Of a DNA stretch of 64,000 nt, positions 28,285 through 36,518 are shown one piece after another (the first letter of the stretch is position 1; each line of letters begins with the position of its first letter). This stretch comes from Alicyclobacillus kakegawensis NBRC 103104 (lineage in GTDB: Bacteria > Bacillota > Bacilli > Alicyclobacillales > Alicyclobacillaceae). The stretch spans positions 124,001-188,000 of the forward strand of contig NZ_BCRP01000004.1 in NCBI RefSeq assembly GCF_001552655.1, in the 5' to 3' direction. The position numbers and the translations under genes are program-made. The notes beneath the pieces were generated by a model, which saw nothing but the letters and a program-made list of their open reading frames with translations, had not been told where the DNA came from and did no database searches.

Positions 28285-29855
28285 CCAGCGAGGTGCGGCA
28301 GCCCCTGCGATGTGAGGTGCCCAAGCCGGAGAGGACCGTCGTGGAGCGGGCGCGGCAGCGGGTGGAGGAGATATCGGGCAACGCGGTGTACCGCGACCGC
28401 CGCCTGTCGCTGCTGACGGACCTGTACCAGTTGACGATGATGTACGGTCAATACCGCCATGGGCGGGATGGCCAAAGGGTTGTCTTTGACCTGTTTTACC
28501 GCAACAATCCCTGCGGTAACGGCTACGTGATTGCGGCCGGATTGGAGCAGGTTGTGTGGTACCTGCACAACCTGCGGTTTACCGATGAGGACATCGCGTA
28601 TTTGCGCAGCCTGCAGTTGTTCGATGAGGATTTTCTCGACCGTTTGCGGCGTTTGCGTTTTACGGGCGACCTGTACGCAGTGCCTGAGGGCACAATCGTA
28701 TTTCCCAATGAACCTTTGCTGCGCGTGGAAGGCCCGGTATTCGAGCTGCAGTTTGTGGAGTCGGCAGTGCTCTCTTTTATCAATCACCAGAGCCTCATCG
28801 CCACCAAGGCGCAGCGCATGGTGGACGCCGCCCGGACGGACAGGCGCCATCCGGGCGCCAAGGTGCTGGAAATGGGGCTGCGCCGGGCCCAGAACGCCGA
28901 TGCCGCGGTTTTTGGCGCGCGGGCCGCGTTTATCGGCGGGTGTGCGGCGACGAGCAACCTGCTGGCGGCGCAGGCATACAACATCCCCGCGGTGGGCACC
29001 ATGGCGCACAGCTGGGTTCAGAGTTTCCCGAGTGAACTTGAGGCGTTCCGCGCTTACGTCGATACGTTCCCTGACCATGCGGTCTTGCTGGTGGACACGT
29101 ATGACGTGCTGCACAGCGGCGTTCCCAACGCAATTCAGATTGCCCACGAATTGGCGGCCAAAGGCAAGCGGCTGCTCGGAATCCGCATCGACAGCGGAGA
29201 TCTCGCCTATTTGTCCAAGCGGGCTCGGGCGATGCTCGATGAGGCCGGGTTGTATGACGTGGGCATCATTGCCTCGTCCGATCTTGATGAACGGACCATC
29301 CGCGAGCTGGTTATTCAGGAGGCTGAGATCACCGATTGGGGCGTCGGCACCAACCTCATCACCAGCAGCGGCTGCCCGGCGTTGGGGGCCGTGTACAAGC
29401 TGGTGGCGCAGGAAGCGGGAGGCTATATGGTGCCTAAGATTAAGGTCTCCGAAAACCCGGCGAAAATCACCAATCCAGGGCGCAAGCAGTTGCTGCGCCT
29501 GTATGTGCACGGATACGCATCCGCCGACTTGATTGCGCTGGCTGACGAGACCTACACAACCAGTCAGCCTCTGGAACTGTTTGATCCAGTGCACACGTAC
29601 AAGCGCAAGGTACTGAGAGAATATGAGATGGAGCCGCTGTTGACCCCGATTTACCTAGGTGGGGAATTGGTCTATGAGCTTCCTGACCTGCGCGCCATTC
29701 GCCGGCGCGTGGAGGACAACATCAGCCGCTTTTCGTCGGAGGTGCTGCGACCGGTCAACCCGCACATCTATCATGTCGACTTGTCGCAGCCGTTGTGGGA
29801 GTTGAAGCAACGGCTCCTGCATGAATGGCGGCCTCAGCAGACGGCTGGCGAGTAG
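28281..29855 (+). CDS. pncB: Nicotinate phosphoribosyltransferase
   Basis: 524 residues. [17 protein letters not shown] is the typical N terminus of the family, and [11 protein letters not shown] with the phosphorylation-related histidine, [16 protein letters not shown] and SSDLDE are the active-site segments. It makes nicotinate mononucleotide from nicotinate and PRPP, for NAD salvage. The start overlaps the previous gene by four bases, so it is cotranscribed with the SuhB-like gene. ispH follows after 46 bases. Confidence 0.95.
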
Positions 29856-29901
29856 CCGCAGGCGCGCAGCGGGGCTGGTTTCTACGAAAGGAGGAGCAGC
29901 C

Positions 29902-30846
29902 ATGAAGGTCATTCGCATTGCTCCCAGGGGCTATTGCCACGGTGTGGTGGACGCGATGGTGCTCGCGCGGCAAGCCGTCGAGGACCCCTCTCTGCCTCGA
30001 CCCATCTATATCTTGGGCATGATTGTTCATAATCAGCACGTGGTGGAGGCGTTCGAAAAGGTGGGCATCATCACCCTGGACGGGGCCAATCGCCTGGAAT
30101 TGTTGGAGCAGGTGAAAGAGGGCACGGTGATTTTCACCGCGCACGGGGTCTCTCCGGAGGTAAGGCGGCGGGCCGCGGAGCGGGGGTTGCGCGTCATTGA
30201 CGCGACATGCCCGGACGTGACGCGCACGCACGATTTGATTCGCGACAAGGCCGAGCAAGGGTATGACATTGTTTACATTGGCCGCAGAGGCCATCCAGAG
30301 CCGGAAGGGGCTTGCGGTGTCGCGCCTGAGCGCGTGCACTTGGTAGAAAATGAACAGGATATTGAGCGACTCAACCTCAGCAATCCGAAGATTGCCGTGA
30401 CCAACCAGACCACCATGAGCCAGTGGGATACCGCTCACTTGATGGCGGCGGTTAAGGCAAAGTATCCGCAGGCTGAGGTGCATAACGAGTTATGCATGGC
30501 CACGCAGACCCGGCAACAGGCGGTGGCCGAGCAGGCCAAGGAGGCCGACCTGTGCATTGTCGTCGGCGATCCGCGCAGCAACAACTCCAATCGCTTGGCG
30601 CAGGTGTCCGAGGAAATTGCCGGCACAAAGGCCTATCGGGTCGCGGATGTCACGGAAATCCAGCGCGACTGGCTAAAAGGTGTGAAAACGGTCGCCGTGA
30701 CGGCCGGCGCTTCCACGCCGACCGCTGTCACCAGCGAGGTCATCGCCTACTTGGAACAGTTTGATGAAAATGACCAGGCGACCTGGGTGCCAGTGCGGAC
30801 GGCCAGCGTGGACAAGATTTTGCCCACGCCGCGTCGGCACGCTTAA
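29902..30846 (+). CDS. ispH: 4-hydroxy-3-methylbut-2-enyl diphosphate reductase
   Basis: 314 residues. The three cysteines binding the Fe-S cluster are in [24 protein letters not shown] and [13 protein letters not shown]. The [10 protein letters not shown] and SNNSNRL segments are also typical. It makes IPP and DMAPP in the last step of the MEP isoprenoid pathway. AAAGGAGGAG precedes the ATG. It needs Fe-S clusters, so it depends on the suf system. The third gene in a run with suhB-like and pncB. Confidence 0.97.
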
Positions 30847-31250: not shown

Positions 31251-32702
31251 ATGGCGAAGCAGGATAAAGAGTTTGTGAAGGAAATCACGCCCCAGAGTGA
31301 GGACTTTTCACGGTGGTACATTGACGTGATTCAGAAAGCCGACTTGATGGACTACGCGCCGGTGCGCGGCTGCATCGTGTTCAAGCCGGACGGGTATGAA
31401 TTGTGGGAGGCTTGCCAACGCGAGCTGGATGTTCGCTTCAAGCGGACAGGCCACCGCAACGCCTATTTTCCGCTGTTTATTCCGGAGAGCTTCCTTGAAA
31501 AGGAAAAGGAGCACGTGGAAGGGTTCAACCCCGAGCTGCCCTGGGTGACCGAGGCGGGCGGAGAAAAACTGGAGGAGCGGCTGGCCATCCGCCCCACATC
31601 GGAGACGGTCATCGGCTACATGTATGCGCGCTGGATTCATTCCTACCGCGACCTGCCTGTGCTCATCAACCAATGGGCAAACGTCGTGCGCTGGGAGAAG
31701 CGGACCCTGCCGTTTTTGCGCACCAGTGAATTCCTCTGGCAGGAGGGACACACGGCCCACGCGACGGCCGAGGAGGCGGAGCAGGAGACGCGCCAGATGC
31801 TTGATGTGTACACCGACTTTGTCGAAAACGTGCTGGCGGTTCCGGTTTTCCGCGGGCAGAAGACGCCTTCCGAGAAGTTCGCCGGTGCGGTGGCCACGTA
31901 CTCGCTGGAGGCGATGATGAAAGACGGCAAGGCCCTGCAGGCGGCCACGTCCCACTACCTGGGGCAAAATTTCGCCAAAGGGTTTGAGATCAAGTATTTG
32001 GACAGGGACAACCAGCTGAAATATGTGTACACCACCTCCTGGGGCATCAGCACCCGCATCCTGGGGGCCATCATCATGGTGCACGGCGACGACAAAGGCT
32101 TGGTGCTGCCGCCGAAAATTGCGCCCACGCAGGTGATCATCGTGCCCATCGGCCCGCAGAAGGAGCGGGCGCGAGTTGTCGAGCACGCCACTACGCTGCG
32201 CGATCAACTCCTGTCGGCCGGGTGGCGGGTGCGCATGGATGACCGCGAAGATTTCAGCCCCGGTTGGAAGTTTAACGAATACGAAATGCGGGGCGTCCCG
32301 ATTCGCCTGGAGCTGGGACCGCGCGACATGGCCAGTGGTCAGGTCACCTTGGCGCGCCGCGACACCGGGGAGAAGCTGGCCGTGCCGGAGAGCGAATTGG
32401 CGGCCAGGCTGCCGCAGTTGATGGACGATATCCAGGCGACGATGTATCAAAAGGCCAAAAAATTTGCCGACGACCATTCGCATATCGCGCACAGCCTCGG
32501 CGAGATCACCGAGATCATCCAGAGCCAGCGAGGTTTCGTGTTGGCCGGATGGTGCGGCGATGACGGGTGTGAGCGGCGGATTAAGGAAGAAGCGGGGGCG
32601 ACCAGCCGCAACATCCCGTTCCAGCCGCCGCAGACGCTGCCGACTTGCGCGGTTTGCGGCCGGCCGGCCGCGCATTCTGTGTGGTACGCAAAAGCATACT
32701 GA
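31251..32702 (+). CDS. proS: Prolyl-tRNA synthetase, archaeal/eukaryotic type
   Basis: 483-residue class II synthetase of the short ProS type without the bacterial editing insertion. Motif 2 is in RWEKRTLPFLRTSEFLWQEGHTAHA, and motif 3 in YTTSWGISTRILGAIIMVHGD. The C-terminal domain has the zinc-type cysteines WCGDDGCERR and TCAVCGRPA. It charges tRNA-Pro. GGGAGG precedes ATG 31251 by six bases. Its neighbour is proline dehydrogenase, so proline use and proline charging sit side by side. Confidence 0.96.
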   Translation: MAKQDKEFVKEITPQSEDFSRWYIDVIQKADLMDYAPVRGCIVFKPDGYELWEACQRELDVRFKRTGHRNAYFPLFIPESFLEKEKEHVEGFNPELPWVTEAGGEKLEERLAIRPTSETVIGYMYARWIHSYRDLPVLINQWANVVRWEKRTLPFLRTSEFLWQEGHTAHATAEEAEQETRQMLDVYTDFVENVLAVPVFRGQKTPSEKFAGAVATYSLEAMMKDGKALQAATSHYLGQNFAKGFEIKYLDRDNQLKYVYTTSWGISTRILGAIIMVHGDDKGLVLPPKIAPTQVIIVPIGPQKERARVVEHATTLRDQLLSAGWRVRMDDREDFSPGWKFNEYEMRGVPIRLELGPRDMASGQVTLARRDTGEKLAVPESELAARLPQLMDDIQATMYQKAKKFADDHSHIAHSLGEITEIIQSQRGFVLAGWCGDDGCERRIKEEAGATSRNIPFQPPQTLPTCAVCGRPAAHSVWYAKAY

Positions 32703-33975: not shown

Positions 33976-34215
33976 TCATGCTTTCCGGCCAATCTTAACC
34001 TGGAACGTCTCCGGGCCCTGTTCAATGTAATCCCAGCTGAACTGTCCAGGGCGTTCAAACTGGAACTGGTAGCGGAGCGGGACGGGATCGTGATCGTTAA
34101 TCAAAAGCATCGCTTCACCCGGCTTCAACCGGTCGAATGTCTCGAAAATCACCTTGTGCTTCAATTGCGGTGGATACTCGGTGGCGCGAACCGTTGCCGC
34201 GAACTGTTCACTCAT
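33976..34215 (-). CDS. DUF2249 domain protein
   Basis: 79 residues with the DUF2249 core: HKVIFETFDRLKPGEAMLLINDHDPVPLRYQFQFERPGQFSWDYIEQGP split over the middle of the protein; the NDHDPVPLRYQF part is the family signature. These proteins resemble TusA/SirA folds and are often found with denitrification, hemerythrin and NO-stress genes. It is divergent from the Crp/Fnr gene, with two Crp-type sites in the 240 bases between them, so it is probably in the same regulon. A hydrophobic frame follows its stop. Confidence 0.85.
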   Translation of the reverse strand: MSEQFAATVRATEYPPQLKHKVIFETFDRLKPGEAMLLINDHDPVPLRYQFQFERPGQFSWDYIEQGPETFQVKIGRKA

Positions 34216-34281
34216 TCCAAACGGCCTCCTCAGAACAGTGTGCTTGCTCCCTCGACTTTACTCATCCAAATTGGCAGCGTG

Positions 34282-34295
34282 GTGATCTGGGTCAC
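34282..34295. promoter_or_regulatory. Crp/Fnr-family binding site 1
   Basis: GTGATCTGGGTCAC, a perfect GTGA-N6-TCAC palindrome about 67 bases upstream of the DUF2249 start. It fits the recognition helix of the adjacent regulator. Confidence 0.7.
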
Positions 34296-34350
34296 ACACA
34301 GCGCGCAAAGCCCGTTCGCGTGAGCGAGCGCATGCCGTAAGCAACCTGGC

Positions 34351-34364
34351 GTGATGTACCTCAC
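34351..34364. promoter_or_regulatory. Crp/Fnr-family binding site 2
   Basis: GTGATGTACCTCAC, again GTGA-N6-TCAC. It lies just upstream of a possible promoter GTGACA (34368) and GATAAA (34390) for the regulator gene, near position -44 from a predicted start around 34402. Confidence 0.7.
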
Positions 34365-34458
34365 ACTGTGACAAAACAGAAAGGGATAAGATAAAACGGG
34401 GTCAGTGAATGAGGGCATAGGTCATACGGAATGTGATGTGGGAAGAAGGGACCCGTTG

Positions 34459-35154
34459 ATGTCCGATAACGGACTGGAAGTTCTGCGCGAGTTCGAGCTG
34501 TTCAAGGACTTGACCCTTGAGGAATTGCAACACGTGCACAAGCTTGTCTTCGAACGGAGTTATGAGCGTGGCGAGTACGTGTTTTTGGAAGGGCAAGAAC
34601 GCGAATCGGTGTACTTCATTCGCCGCGGAATGATCAAAATCTTGAAGACGGACAAAGACGGCCGTGAACATATTGTCAACATTCTGGGGAAGGGGCAAAT
34701 GTTCCCCCACGTGGGTTTCTTTCAAGATTCACCGTATCCCGGCACGGCCCAGGTGATGGAGTCTGCCGCGTTGCTTGGCATCCGCTGCCTTCCATTTGAT
34801 GCATTGCTTATGGAACGTCCAGGCATCATGCGCAAGTTGATGCGGGTGATGGGGGAGAAGCTCGTCCAGTTACAAGAGAAGTTGCAGCAATTGGCGGTGT
34901 TTGATGCGCATGATCGCGTCATTGCCTTACTCCGGCACTTTGCGGAGGAATACGGACGACCGGAGCCTGATGGCATCCATGTCAAGCTACCGGTTACACA
35001 CGGGGAAATGGCGCACATGATTGGCATCACGCGCGAATCGGTGAACCGCGTGTGTAACCAGCTGCGGAGGGATGGAGTCCTCAGTGGAGATCGGAATGAA
35101 TGGGTCTCCCATATTGATCGGCTTGGCGGATACGGTGTAGGGGGACATGAATGA
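34459..35154 (+). CDS. Crp/Fnr-family transcriptional regulator
   Basis: 231 residues. An N-terminal cyclic-nucleotide-like beta-roll (YERGEYVFLEGQERESVYFIRRG) is followed by a long dimer helix and a winged helix whose recognition helix reads GITRESVNRVCNQL. The RExxxR pattern is that of Crp, which reads GTGA half-sites, matching the two palindromes upstream. No N-terminal cysteine cluster is present, so it is not a classical [4Fe-4S] Fnr; the ligand is unknown and might be haem, NO or none. ATG 34459 is favoured over 34408. The gene overlaps the NnrS-like gene by four bases. Confidence 0.9.
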   Translation: MSDNGLEVLREFELFKDLTLEELQHVHKLVFERSYERGEYVFLEGQERESVYFIRRGMIKILKTDKDGREHIVNILGKGQMFPHVGFFQDSPYPGTAQVMESAALLGIRCLPFDALLMERPGIMRKLMRVMGEKLVQLQEKLQQLAVFDAHDRVIALLRHFAEEYGRPEPDGIHVKLPVTHGEMAHMIGITRESVNRVCNQLRRDGVLSGDRNEWVSHIDRLGGYGVGGHE

Positions 35155-36518
35155 TGCATTCGACGACCTTTGTGAGCAGACTACCCCGGGCATTCATCTA
35201 TCTCGCGTTTTTCAATTTTCTGATCGGTTCCTCCCTGGGCGGTTGGATGGCTGAGGCGCCCGCTATGTGGTCGACGGTTGGGCCGATTCACGGCGAGATC
35301 AATCCATTCGGGTGGTTGACCATGCTCATCTACGGTATGACGTACGCGGTCCTGTCGCTGTTCGCCGGGATCCGGCCAGCGCGTGCATGGGTGGGTTGGC
35401 TGCACGTATGCCTGGCAGAAGCTGCTGTCATATGGATTGTCGTCGCGTATATCTTGCAGTCGCGACCCGTGTTGTCCGTGGGATTGACGTTTCAAGCTAT
35501 CGCCCCCGTCCTTTTTTTCGCCAACATCTGGTCAGCAGTGGTTTCCTCCAGACGCGATTCTCGCGGGGGAAAAGCCCTGCCAAACGCCAGCGTGGATGCG
35601 AAGAGCAGCCACGGTTTGGGCACAGGCGCCTCGGAGCGGTCGTTTCGTTCGCGGGATGCCCAGTATCTAGCCACGGATAGACTGGCGCGCCGCGGAACGG
35701 ACATCGCGCTGATCATCTTTGTCGTCGGTGCTTGGTGGGCGGCGCTCACAACGCTTTTTGGACGGACCTATCCACAAACCCTTAAACCGCAGGGGGCCAT
35801 TTTACTTGAATATTACGGATGGATCGCCGCGACTGTCCTCGCAGTGTCCCTGCATATGCTTCCACGCCTCACACAGTTCAAGGGAATAAGAGCCCAAGCG
35901 ATACGCGTCGGACAGGCCCTGTGGGGGATTGGGTTGCTGTTGGCTGTTGTGGGCACTGTGGCTCCCGTTGTCGCTTCGGCCGGGTCACGCCTGCTCGGGG
36001 CCTCCTTTATTTGGAATGCATCTATTTACTTATGGACGATGGCCGCTTCACGCCCTTCTGCAGATGGTGGCGTGCCGATAAGTCTACCAACCCGCCTCGC
36101 CTGGTTGGTCAGTTTTGCGTTCGCCTGGCTGCTGGGGGGATGTCTGCTATTCGGGATCCCTCCGCTCTCACTGTTCTCCCTACACCTTTTGTTTCTCGGT
36201 TGGATCACGACGCTTGTCTATGGAATTGGATACAGGCTGTTCCCATTGATCTTGAACAGGCCGTCGCCGCGTCGCTTCATTGCATTGGCCCAACTCCTAT
36301 GTTCTGTCGTGGGTGCGACGTTGATGGCCATCGCGTTCAGTCCCATGTCACATGGGATAGGGGCACAAACTATGCGAACGACGCTCGCCACTGGGGGAAT
36401 ACTGGCGGCGCTTGGCGCGGTCACATTTTTGCTCCAGTGGCTCCTGCCCTATGGTACACTGGGACAGAAGGGATGGGCCGGGACGCCTGCGACAGCTTTC
36501 GGTCCTCGCCGGTCTTGA
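35151..36518 (+). CDS. NnrS-like polytopic membrane protein
   Basis: 455 residues with about 12 hydrophobic segments. Histidines occur inside helices as in NnrS and haem-copper oxidase subunit I: VGPIHGEINPFGWLTMLIYG, VSLHMLPRL, and LHLLFLGWITTLVYGIGYRLFPL. NnrS is a haem and copper protein that protects against nitric oxide. The two halves look related to each other. A hydrophilic insert of about 50 residues sits near 130-180. It overlaps the Crp/Fnr gene by four bases, so regulator and membrane protein are coupled. Confidence 0.7.
   Translation: MMHSTTFVSRLPRAFIYLAFFNFLIGSSLGGWMAEAPAMWSTVGPIHGEINPFGWLTMLIYGMTYAVLSLFAGIRPARAWVGWLHVCLAEAAVIWIVVAYILQSRPVLSVGLTFQAIAPVLFFANIWSAVVSSRRDSRGGKALPNASVDAKSSHGLGTGASERSFRSRDAQYLATDRLARRGTDIALIIFVVGAWWAALTTLFGRTYPQTLKPQGAILLEYYGWIAATVLAVSLHMLPRLTQFKGIRAQAIRVGQALWGIGLLLAVVGTVAPVVASAGSRLLGASFIWNASIYLWTMAASRPSADGGVPISLPTRLAWLVSFAFAWLLGGCLLFGIPPLSLFSLHLLFLGWITTLVYGIGYRLFPLILNRPSPRRFIALAQLLCSVVGATLMAIAFSPMSHGIGAQTMRTTLATGGILAALGAVTFLLQWLLPYGTLGQKGWAGTPATAFGPRRS

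Follow-up and report, generated by a model that had tools for sequence, protein, structure and literature searches.

A conserved Crp/Fnr module of Alicyclobacillus with a DUF2249 gene and an oxidase-fold membrane protein, probably autoactivated and of the nitrogen-oxide kind

Proteins with the domain of unknown function DUF2249 are encoded next to denitrification genes in Thermus, haloarchaea and proteobacteria. In Thermus thermophilus NAR1, anoxia together with nitrate induces drpAB, whose expression requires the CRP-family activator DnrT (PMC6282519; PMC7694296), which is oxygen-insensitive and binds near -43 (PMC6282519; PMC7694296), while DrpA and DrpB are themselves required for nitrate control (PMC6282519). 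On the Thermus plasmid pTHTHE1601, we found the order Crp/Fnr and GAF proteins, narGHJI, DUF2249 (DrpA), DrpB and a COX1-like half protein, followed by a protoglobin, an ortholog of a second oxidase-fold family and DUF59; the Crp/Fnr protein of this nar plasmid sits at the DnrT position. The half-length COX1-like protein (144 aa; L173:15001-15435), encoded between the DrpB and protoglobin genes, matched PF00115 at E 7e-5 over profile positions 344-405, below the cut-off. Elsewhere, DUF2249 genes of Haloferax mediterranei rise under denitrification (PMC11218638), and in Eleftheria we found DUF2249 followed by an NO reductase, an Rrf2 regulator and a true NnrS. Given the Thermus, Haloferax and Eleftheria cases, DUF2249 is associated with nitrogen oxides beyond the locus described here, and this association is already known. 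Among regulators, Desulfovibrio HcpR recognises TGTGA-N6-TCACA (PMC1274295), and the haem axial ligand of Porphyromonas gingivalis HcpR is Met68 (PMC12750200). Nitrogen-oxide regulons include dnrN (RIC), nir, hemerythrin-like and nnrS genes, with RIC and nir genes as core members (PMC1274295).

We analysed a window of 64 kb (the whole stretch of DNA under study), in which a DUF2249 gene is divergent from a Crp/Fnr regulator gene, with two perfect GTGA-N6-TCAC palindromes in between, and the regulator gene overlaps the gene for a membrane protein by 4 bp (ATGA). This layout of genes, palindromes and overlap had been described in the original prediction, and every element was found in its place:

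33976-34215, minus strand: DUF2249 protein, 79 aa, single domain, DrpA-like (PF10006, E 8.1e-26, 90.1 bits against a cut-off of 29.5)
34255-34260, minus strand: probable -10 element TAAAGT of the DUF2249 promoter (by its spacing to operator 1)
34282-34295, unstranded: predicted operator 1, GTGATCTGGGTCAC, an exact palindrome assigned to the DUF2249 promoter
34351-34364, unstranded: predicted operator 2, GTGATGTACCTCAC, an exact palindrome assigned to the regulator promoter
34387-34392, plus strand: probable -10 element TAAGAT of the regulator promoter (by its spacing to operator 2)
34459-35154, plus strand: Crp/Fnr transcription regulator, 231 aa (PF00027, PF13545, PF00325)
35032-35049, plus strand: recognition-helix code RESVNR (R192, E193, R197), invariant in 39 homologues
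35151-36518, plus strand: 12-TM haem-copper-oxidase-fold protein, 455 aa (AF2 model, structure superposition)

The ATG at 34459 is the best start for the regulator; a longer alternative from the GTG at 34405 is disfavoured because it would begin only about 6 nt after the predicted transcription start.

Across the window, GTGA-N6-TCAC had three matches against a mean of 0.89, and at least three occurred in 6 of 100 shuffles, so that this number of matches per 64 kb is alone compatible with chance and not remarkable; the third site, at 31275, is coding. Two palindromes within the 243-bp intergenic region had a probability of about 5e-6 in mononucleotide shuffles. We compared the locus with neighbourhoods from other genomes of the order, in which genes were called and proteins clustered. 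Order-wide, 19 of 25 single-domain DUF2249 genes had a palindrome no further than 250 bp away, versus 1 of 231 unclustered genes, counts that span ten genera and, the genomes being related, are not independent. GTGA-N6 was also by far the commonest 4-mer palindrome (spacers 2-10) in DUF2249 promoters (18/25; the runner-up, at 7, is a shifted reading of that very site), and operator 1 was the best-scoring place in the window for a matrix derived from the relatives. Chance was thus ruled out by the comparative data rather than by the whole-window count alone, and because of this conservation the palindromes look like real operators and are treated below as putative ones.

Promoter spacing was conserved as well. 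A TATAAT-like hexamer (at least 4/6 matches) starts 29.5 nt downstream of the palindrome centre in 18 of 23 operators, against a background mean of 0.85 per offset. An operator centred at -41.5 is the class II activator geometry of CRP and FNR promoters. At operator 2, the first base of TAAGAT is 29.5 nt from the centre, the exact family distance, which gives the -41.5 geometry; at operator 1, the first base of TAAAGT is 28.5 nt away, giving -40.5, 1 nt under the family mode, and this shorter spacing also occurs in the congener G022 and at one site of G025. Relative to transcription starts predicted near 34248 on the minus strand and near 34399 on the plus strand, both operators therefore lie near -41.5 and just upstream of the -10 element, and each palindrome would fit one of the two promoters as its class II activator site. 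Given one palindrome per promoter, the regulator is predicted to activate itself and probably acts on its own gene in this way.

The regulon content of relatives is the best guide to the signal of the regulator. Operators with the right -10 spacing were found upstream of genes for RIC/ScdA (Fe-S repair) in three genomes, one of these genes scoring above the NCBIfam cut-off, and upstream of nirK-like genes in two genomes (TIGR02376, 184-189 bits, under the cut-off of 296). Further operator-preceded genes in relatives encode DUF59, tandem DUF2249 and both oxidase-fold families; a SLAC1 gene near nar and a gene for a haem-synthase-like radical SAM protein carry the same operator and spacing, and the operator also precedes a gene whose cupin product falls into one cluster with cupin-hemerythrin proteins. 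Over 59 genomes, the regulator, DUF2249 and the membrane protein co-occur (Fisher P = 4e-8 to 5e-6), as does narG with DUF2249 (22 of 24 narG genomes, P = 0.007), all P values being uncorrected for relatedness; DUF2249 without narG was seen in 20 genomes, the window genome among them. Operators before RIC, nirK-like, DUF2249 and DUF59 genes are best read as marking an NO/nitrosative regulon.

Two other groups of genes were observed in these neighbourhoods. Two unnamed small families (~110 and ~125 aa) often lie downstream of the single-domain DUF2249 gene in relatives (L036:15437-16170; L046:13200-14085; L089:9227-9934; L092:8919-9782; L094:9378-10114); two representatives had no Pfam match at E 0.001, and both families are absent near the DUF2249 gene of the window. 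An IspH/LytB gene is located at 29821-30846 of the window, about 4 kb from the module, and the operator is found upstream of IspH in three relatives (L041:6277-7290; L042:6071-7105; L036:12447-13418), and in L036 and L042 a nirK-like gene is close by, an arrangement that hints at a link between IspH and the regulon.

The window genome carries a reduced version. The genome scan proposed earlier for defining the regulon was run on exact sites and yielded no further promoter-like operator among those inspected: 47 exact GTGA-N6-TCAC sites outside the window were inspected, of which 39 were inside called genes and none of the others was promoter-like, these lacking TGTGA/TCACA-type flanks or a nearby start, with one at a contig edge. 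A larger regulon in this genome was accordingly rejected for perfect sites. Searches of the genome for narG and RIC gave no match, the nirK-like protein has three relatives there, all distant at 25-30% identity, and the four COX1 matches all scored like oxidases and none was NOR-like. Since narG, RIC and a NOR-like hit are missing, the NO source would be external or chemical. Together, these results make the window module look like the minimal core of a larger regulon.

The same gene content bears on the first of the alternatives, a nitrate/nitrite circuit like that of Thermus DrpAB, in which DUF2249 would be the sensor and the regulator a signal-blind activator working through its concentration, as reported for DnrT. 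We consider this unlikely. The Thermus requirement for DrpA/DrpB and the oxygen insensitivity of DnrT (PMC6282519; PMC7694296) speak for it, as do the 55.7% identity of the window and Thermus DUF2249 proteins and the predicted autoactivation, which fits a concentration switch. However, the window genome has no narG match, and its single DUF2249 match leaves no DrpB-like tandem DUF2249; moreover, a pocket motif, MFPH-GFF-PYPGTA, is conserved in the regulator homologues, more than a signal-blind activator would need.

The second alternative concerns the membrane protein, which had originally been called NnrS-like. As a family membership this name needs correcting: PF05940 had no match in the window protein or in its own genome at E 10, its best E value among 33 homologues was 0.07 (1/33), and a true NnrS scored 373 bits, so NnrS family identity was rejected on the lack of a PF05940 match. 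The AF2 model (pLDDT 88) instead has the 12-TM subunit I fold of the haem-copper oxidase superfamily (Foldseek, E 1e-6) and superposed on the cbb3 oxidase 8smr_E (VIA Z 34.7, rmsd 3.0, 382 residues) and on the NO reductase 4xyd (VIA Z 32.4, rmsd 3.0, 375 residues). With HHalign, the protein could not be meaningfully aligned to the local COX1 cluster, to a NOR or to an NnrS sequence, a PDB sequence search with the membrane-protein and DUF2249 profiles returned nothing useful, and the plasmid collection held no relative of the membrane protein. The only invariant histidines are H47 (TM2), H235 (TM6) and H345 (TM10), with none in TM7 by helix count, compared with six in a catalytic haem-copper oxidase or NOR. 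In a mapping by helix number and motif only, H47 and H345 would match the low-spin haem ligands, whereas the other TM10 histidine and the TM7 pair appear to be absent. Because the subunit I fold keeps only three invariant histidines, the protein is probably non-catalytic.

Its oxidase fold would suit an oxygen or respiratory-chain module, with the regulator responding to low oxygen or redox state and adjusting a quinol/cytochrome oxidase and its haem supply, and with the oxidase-fold protein as an assembly or haem-handling factor. The genomic setting agrees in part, as the membrane-protein gene, mostly together with the regulator gene, was located within eight genes of ctaA/ctaB (cytochrome oxidase cluster) in 13 of 33 loci. 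We nonetheless regard this reading as quite unlikely, given that operators were absent upstream of the tested cox genes (0/15 CoxA1, 0/16 Cox3, 0/14 Cox4) and are found instead before DUF2249, RIC, nirK-like and DUF59 genes. In the window genome, the cox cluster is located elsewhere (core genes 95-99% identical to those of the congener G022), and neither it nor the adjoining second oxidase-fold gene has an intergenic operator. That gene, the window genome's member of the second family (c2), lies beside the cox cluster on another contig (G000:C7:11024-12307, in L176:5880-7328).

We further examined the regulator for its code and its sensing pocket. It is a Crp/Fnr protein by domain content (PF00027, E 3e-19; PF13545, E 2e-14), and its AF2 model (pLDDT 89) has GlxR and MtbCRP as best structural neighbours (Z 25). 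In the recognition helix R192-E-S-V-N-R197, R192, E193 and R197 are invariant over 39 homologues, in agreement with the proposed RExxxR code for GTGA and with the reported correlation between R180/E181 of CRP and G3/A6 in the site (PMC1274295). The HcpR-type operator code TGTGA-N6-TCACA, read by R180/E181, is present too, but it is common to CRP and thus not diagnostic. In G016, the DUF2249 gene (L093:9435-9674) has a perfect operator and the -10 spacing, yet a search for the regulator at 1e-40 gave no match in that genome, so the operator can probably also be used by a different Crp/Fnr protein. As first predicted, the Fnr cysteines are missing: the regulator has only C109 and C199, neither of them conserved among the 39 homologues, and Fnr proper, with its four cysteines for 4Fe-4S, was rejected (Fnr model, 60.8 bits versus 228). 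A classical TGTGA regulator answering to cAMP, suggested by the CRP-like DNA code and by the cAMP-binding GlxR and MtbCRP as closest solved structures, is highly improbable and was rejected, because the family has PHVG...PYPGTA in place of the contact stretch GELS...PRTSSA, with the pocket Glu and Arg-Thr/Ser replaced, the CRP equivalog score was 84 bits versus a cut-off of 266, and the targets are not catabolic. The position of the CRP pocket Glu is occupied by the near-invariant His84, a candidate haem ligand by virtue of its conservation, and a haem site is the likeliest sensor of this regulator.

We therefore favour, at somewhat better than even confidence, a small Crp/Fnr regulon under positive autoregulation and of the NO/nitrate-respiration type. 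The earlier view of an NO/low-oxygen module holds for the module itself, its operator code, its operon structure and its NO/nitrate-respiration flavour, and fails for the third gene as a member of the NnrS family. The genes, operator, predicted fold, promoter spacing, conservation and neighbourhood described above are computational observations. From them we infer a scheme of DNA binding, activation, signal, haem and protein roles, in which a regulator dimer would bind GTGA-N6-TCAC and bring RNA polymerase to a divergent pair of class II promoters; operator 1 would drive DUF2249, and operator 2 the regulator gene with its translationally coupled oxidase-fold gene. The signal would most likely be NO, or NO with low oxygen, sensed through neither Fnr cysteines nor a cAMP pocket, and the DUF2249 protein may be a DrpA-like accessory protein or sensor. 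In the membrane protein, one low-spin b-haem (H47/H345) is probably retained and the binuclear centre is not; because that centre is missing, we propose that the protein may handle haem, electrons or NO, by binding or relaying them, instead of catalysing. Overall, the locus is a real and conserved Crp/Fnr module, probably autoactivated and of the nitrogen-oxide kind. A bolder reading, speculative and in our view rather unlikely, is that the regulators are haem-based NO sensors forming a new orthologous group in acidophilic and thermotolerant Bacillota, with a catalytically dead oxidase subunit as membrane NO/haem sensor or relay alongside DUF2249, in a minimal NO-sensing circuit that outlasts the denitrification enzymes.

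On the favoured NO-type reading, DUF2249 is here the target that recurs most regularly for a single regulator whose operator is precisely defined, in a genome that gave no match for narG or RIC, and the module offers a small testable system of two promoters, one regulator and two targets. For Alicyclobacillus relatives, these findings also predict a regulon in which Fe-S repair and a nitrite-reductase-like gene take part, and they bring out a family whose members have the oxidase fold and are seemingly devoid of catalysis.

Compared with known systems, the membrane-protein model shares the full-length 12-TM fold with subunit I of haem-copper oxidases and NO reductases, whereas their binuclear centre is not expected in it. 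NnrS is likewise a polytopic membrane protein beside an NO-type regulator, but PF05940 is absent here. The window regulator has the Crp/Fnr fold in common with the NO-responsive HcpR, DNR and NnrR; the sites of NnrR and of most HcpR proteins are of the TTG or GTAAC type, unlike the GTGA sites of the window, and the loci inspected showed no hcp gene. The Thermus Crp/Fnr protein is 32% identical to the window regulator, and because its helix reads PEAVSR rather than RESVNR and drpA has no GTGA palindrome, unlike the DUF2249 gene of the window, the regulatory link in Thermus is analogous, not identical. The window locus differs further from the Thermus module in having no nar, DrpB or protoglobin genes. 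Like Thermus dnrST/drpAB, however, it pairs a Crp/Fnr activator with a single-domain DUF2249 protein, and the Thermus module shares with Alicyclobacillus relatives the tandem DUF2249, the second oxidase-fold ortholog (HHalign 99.8%) and DUF59.
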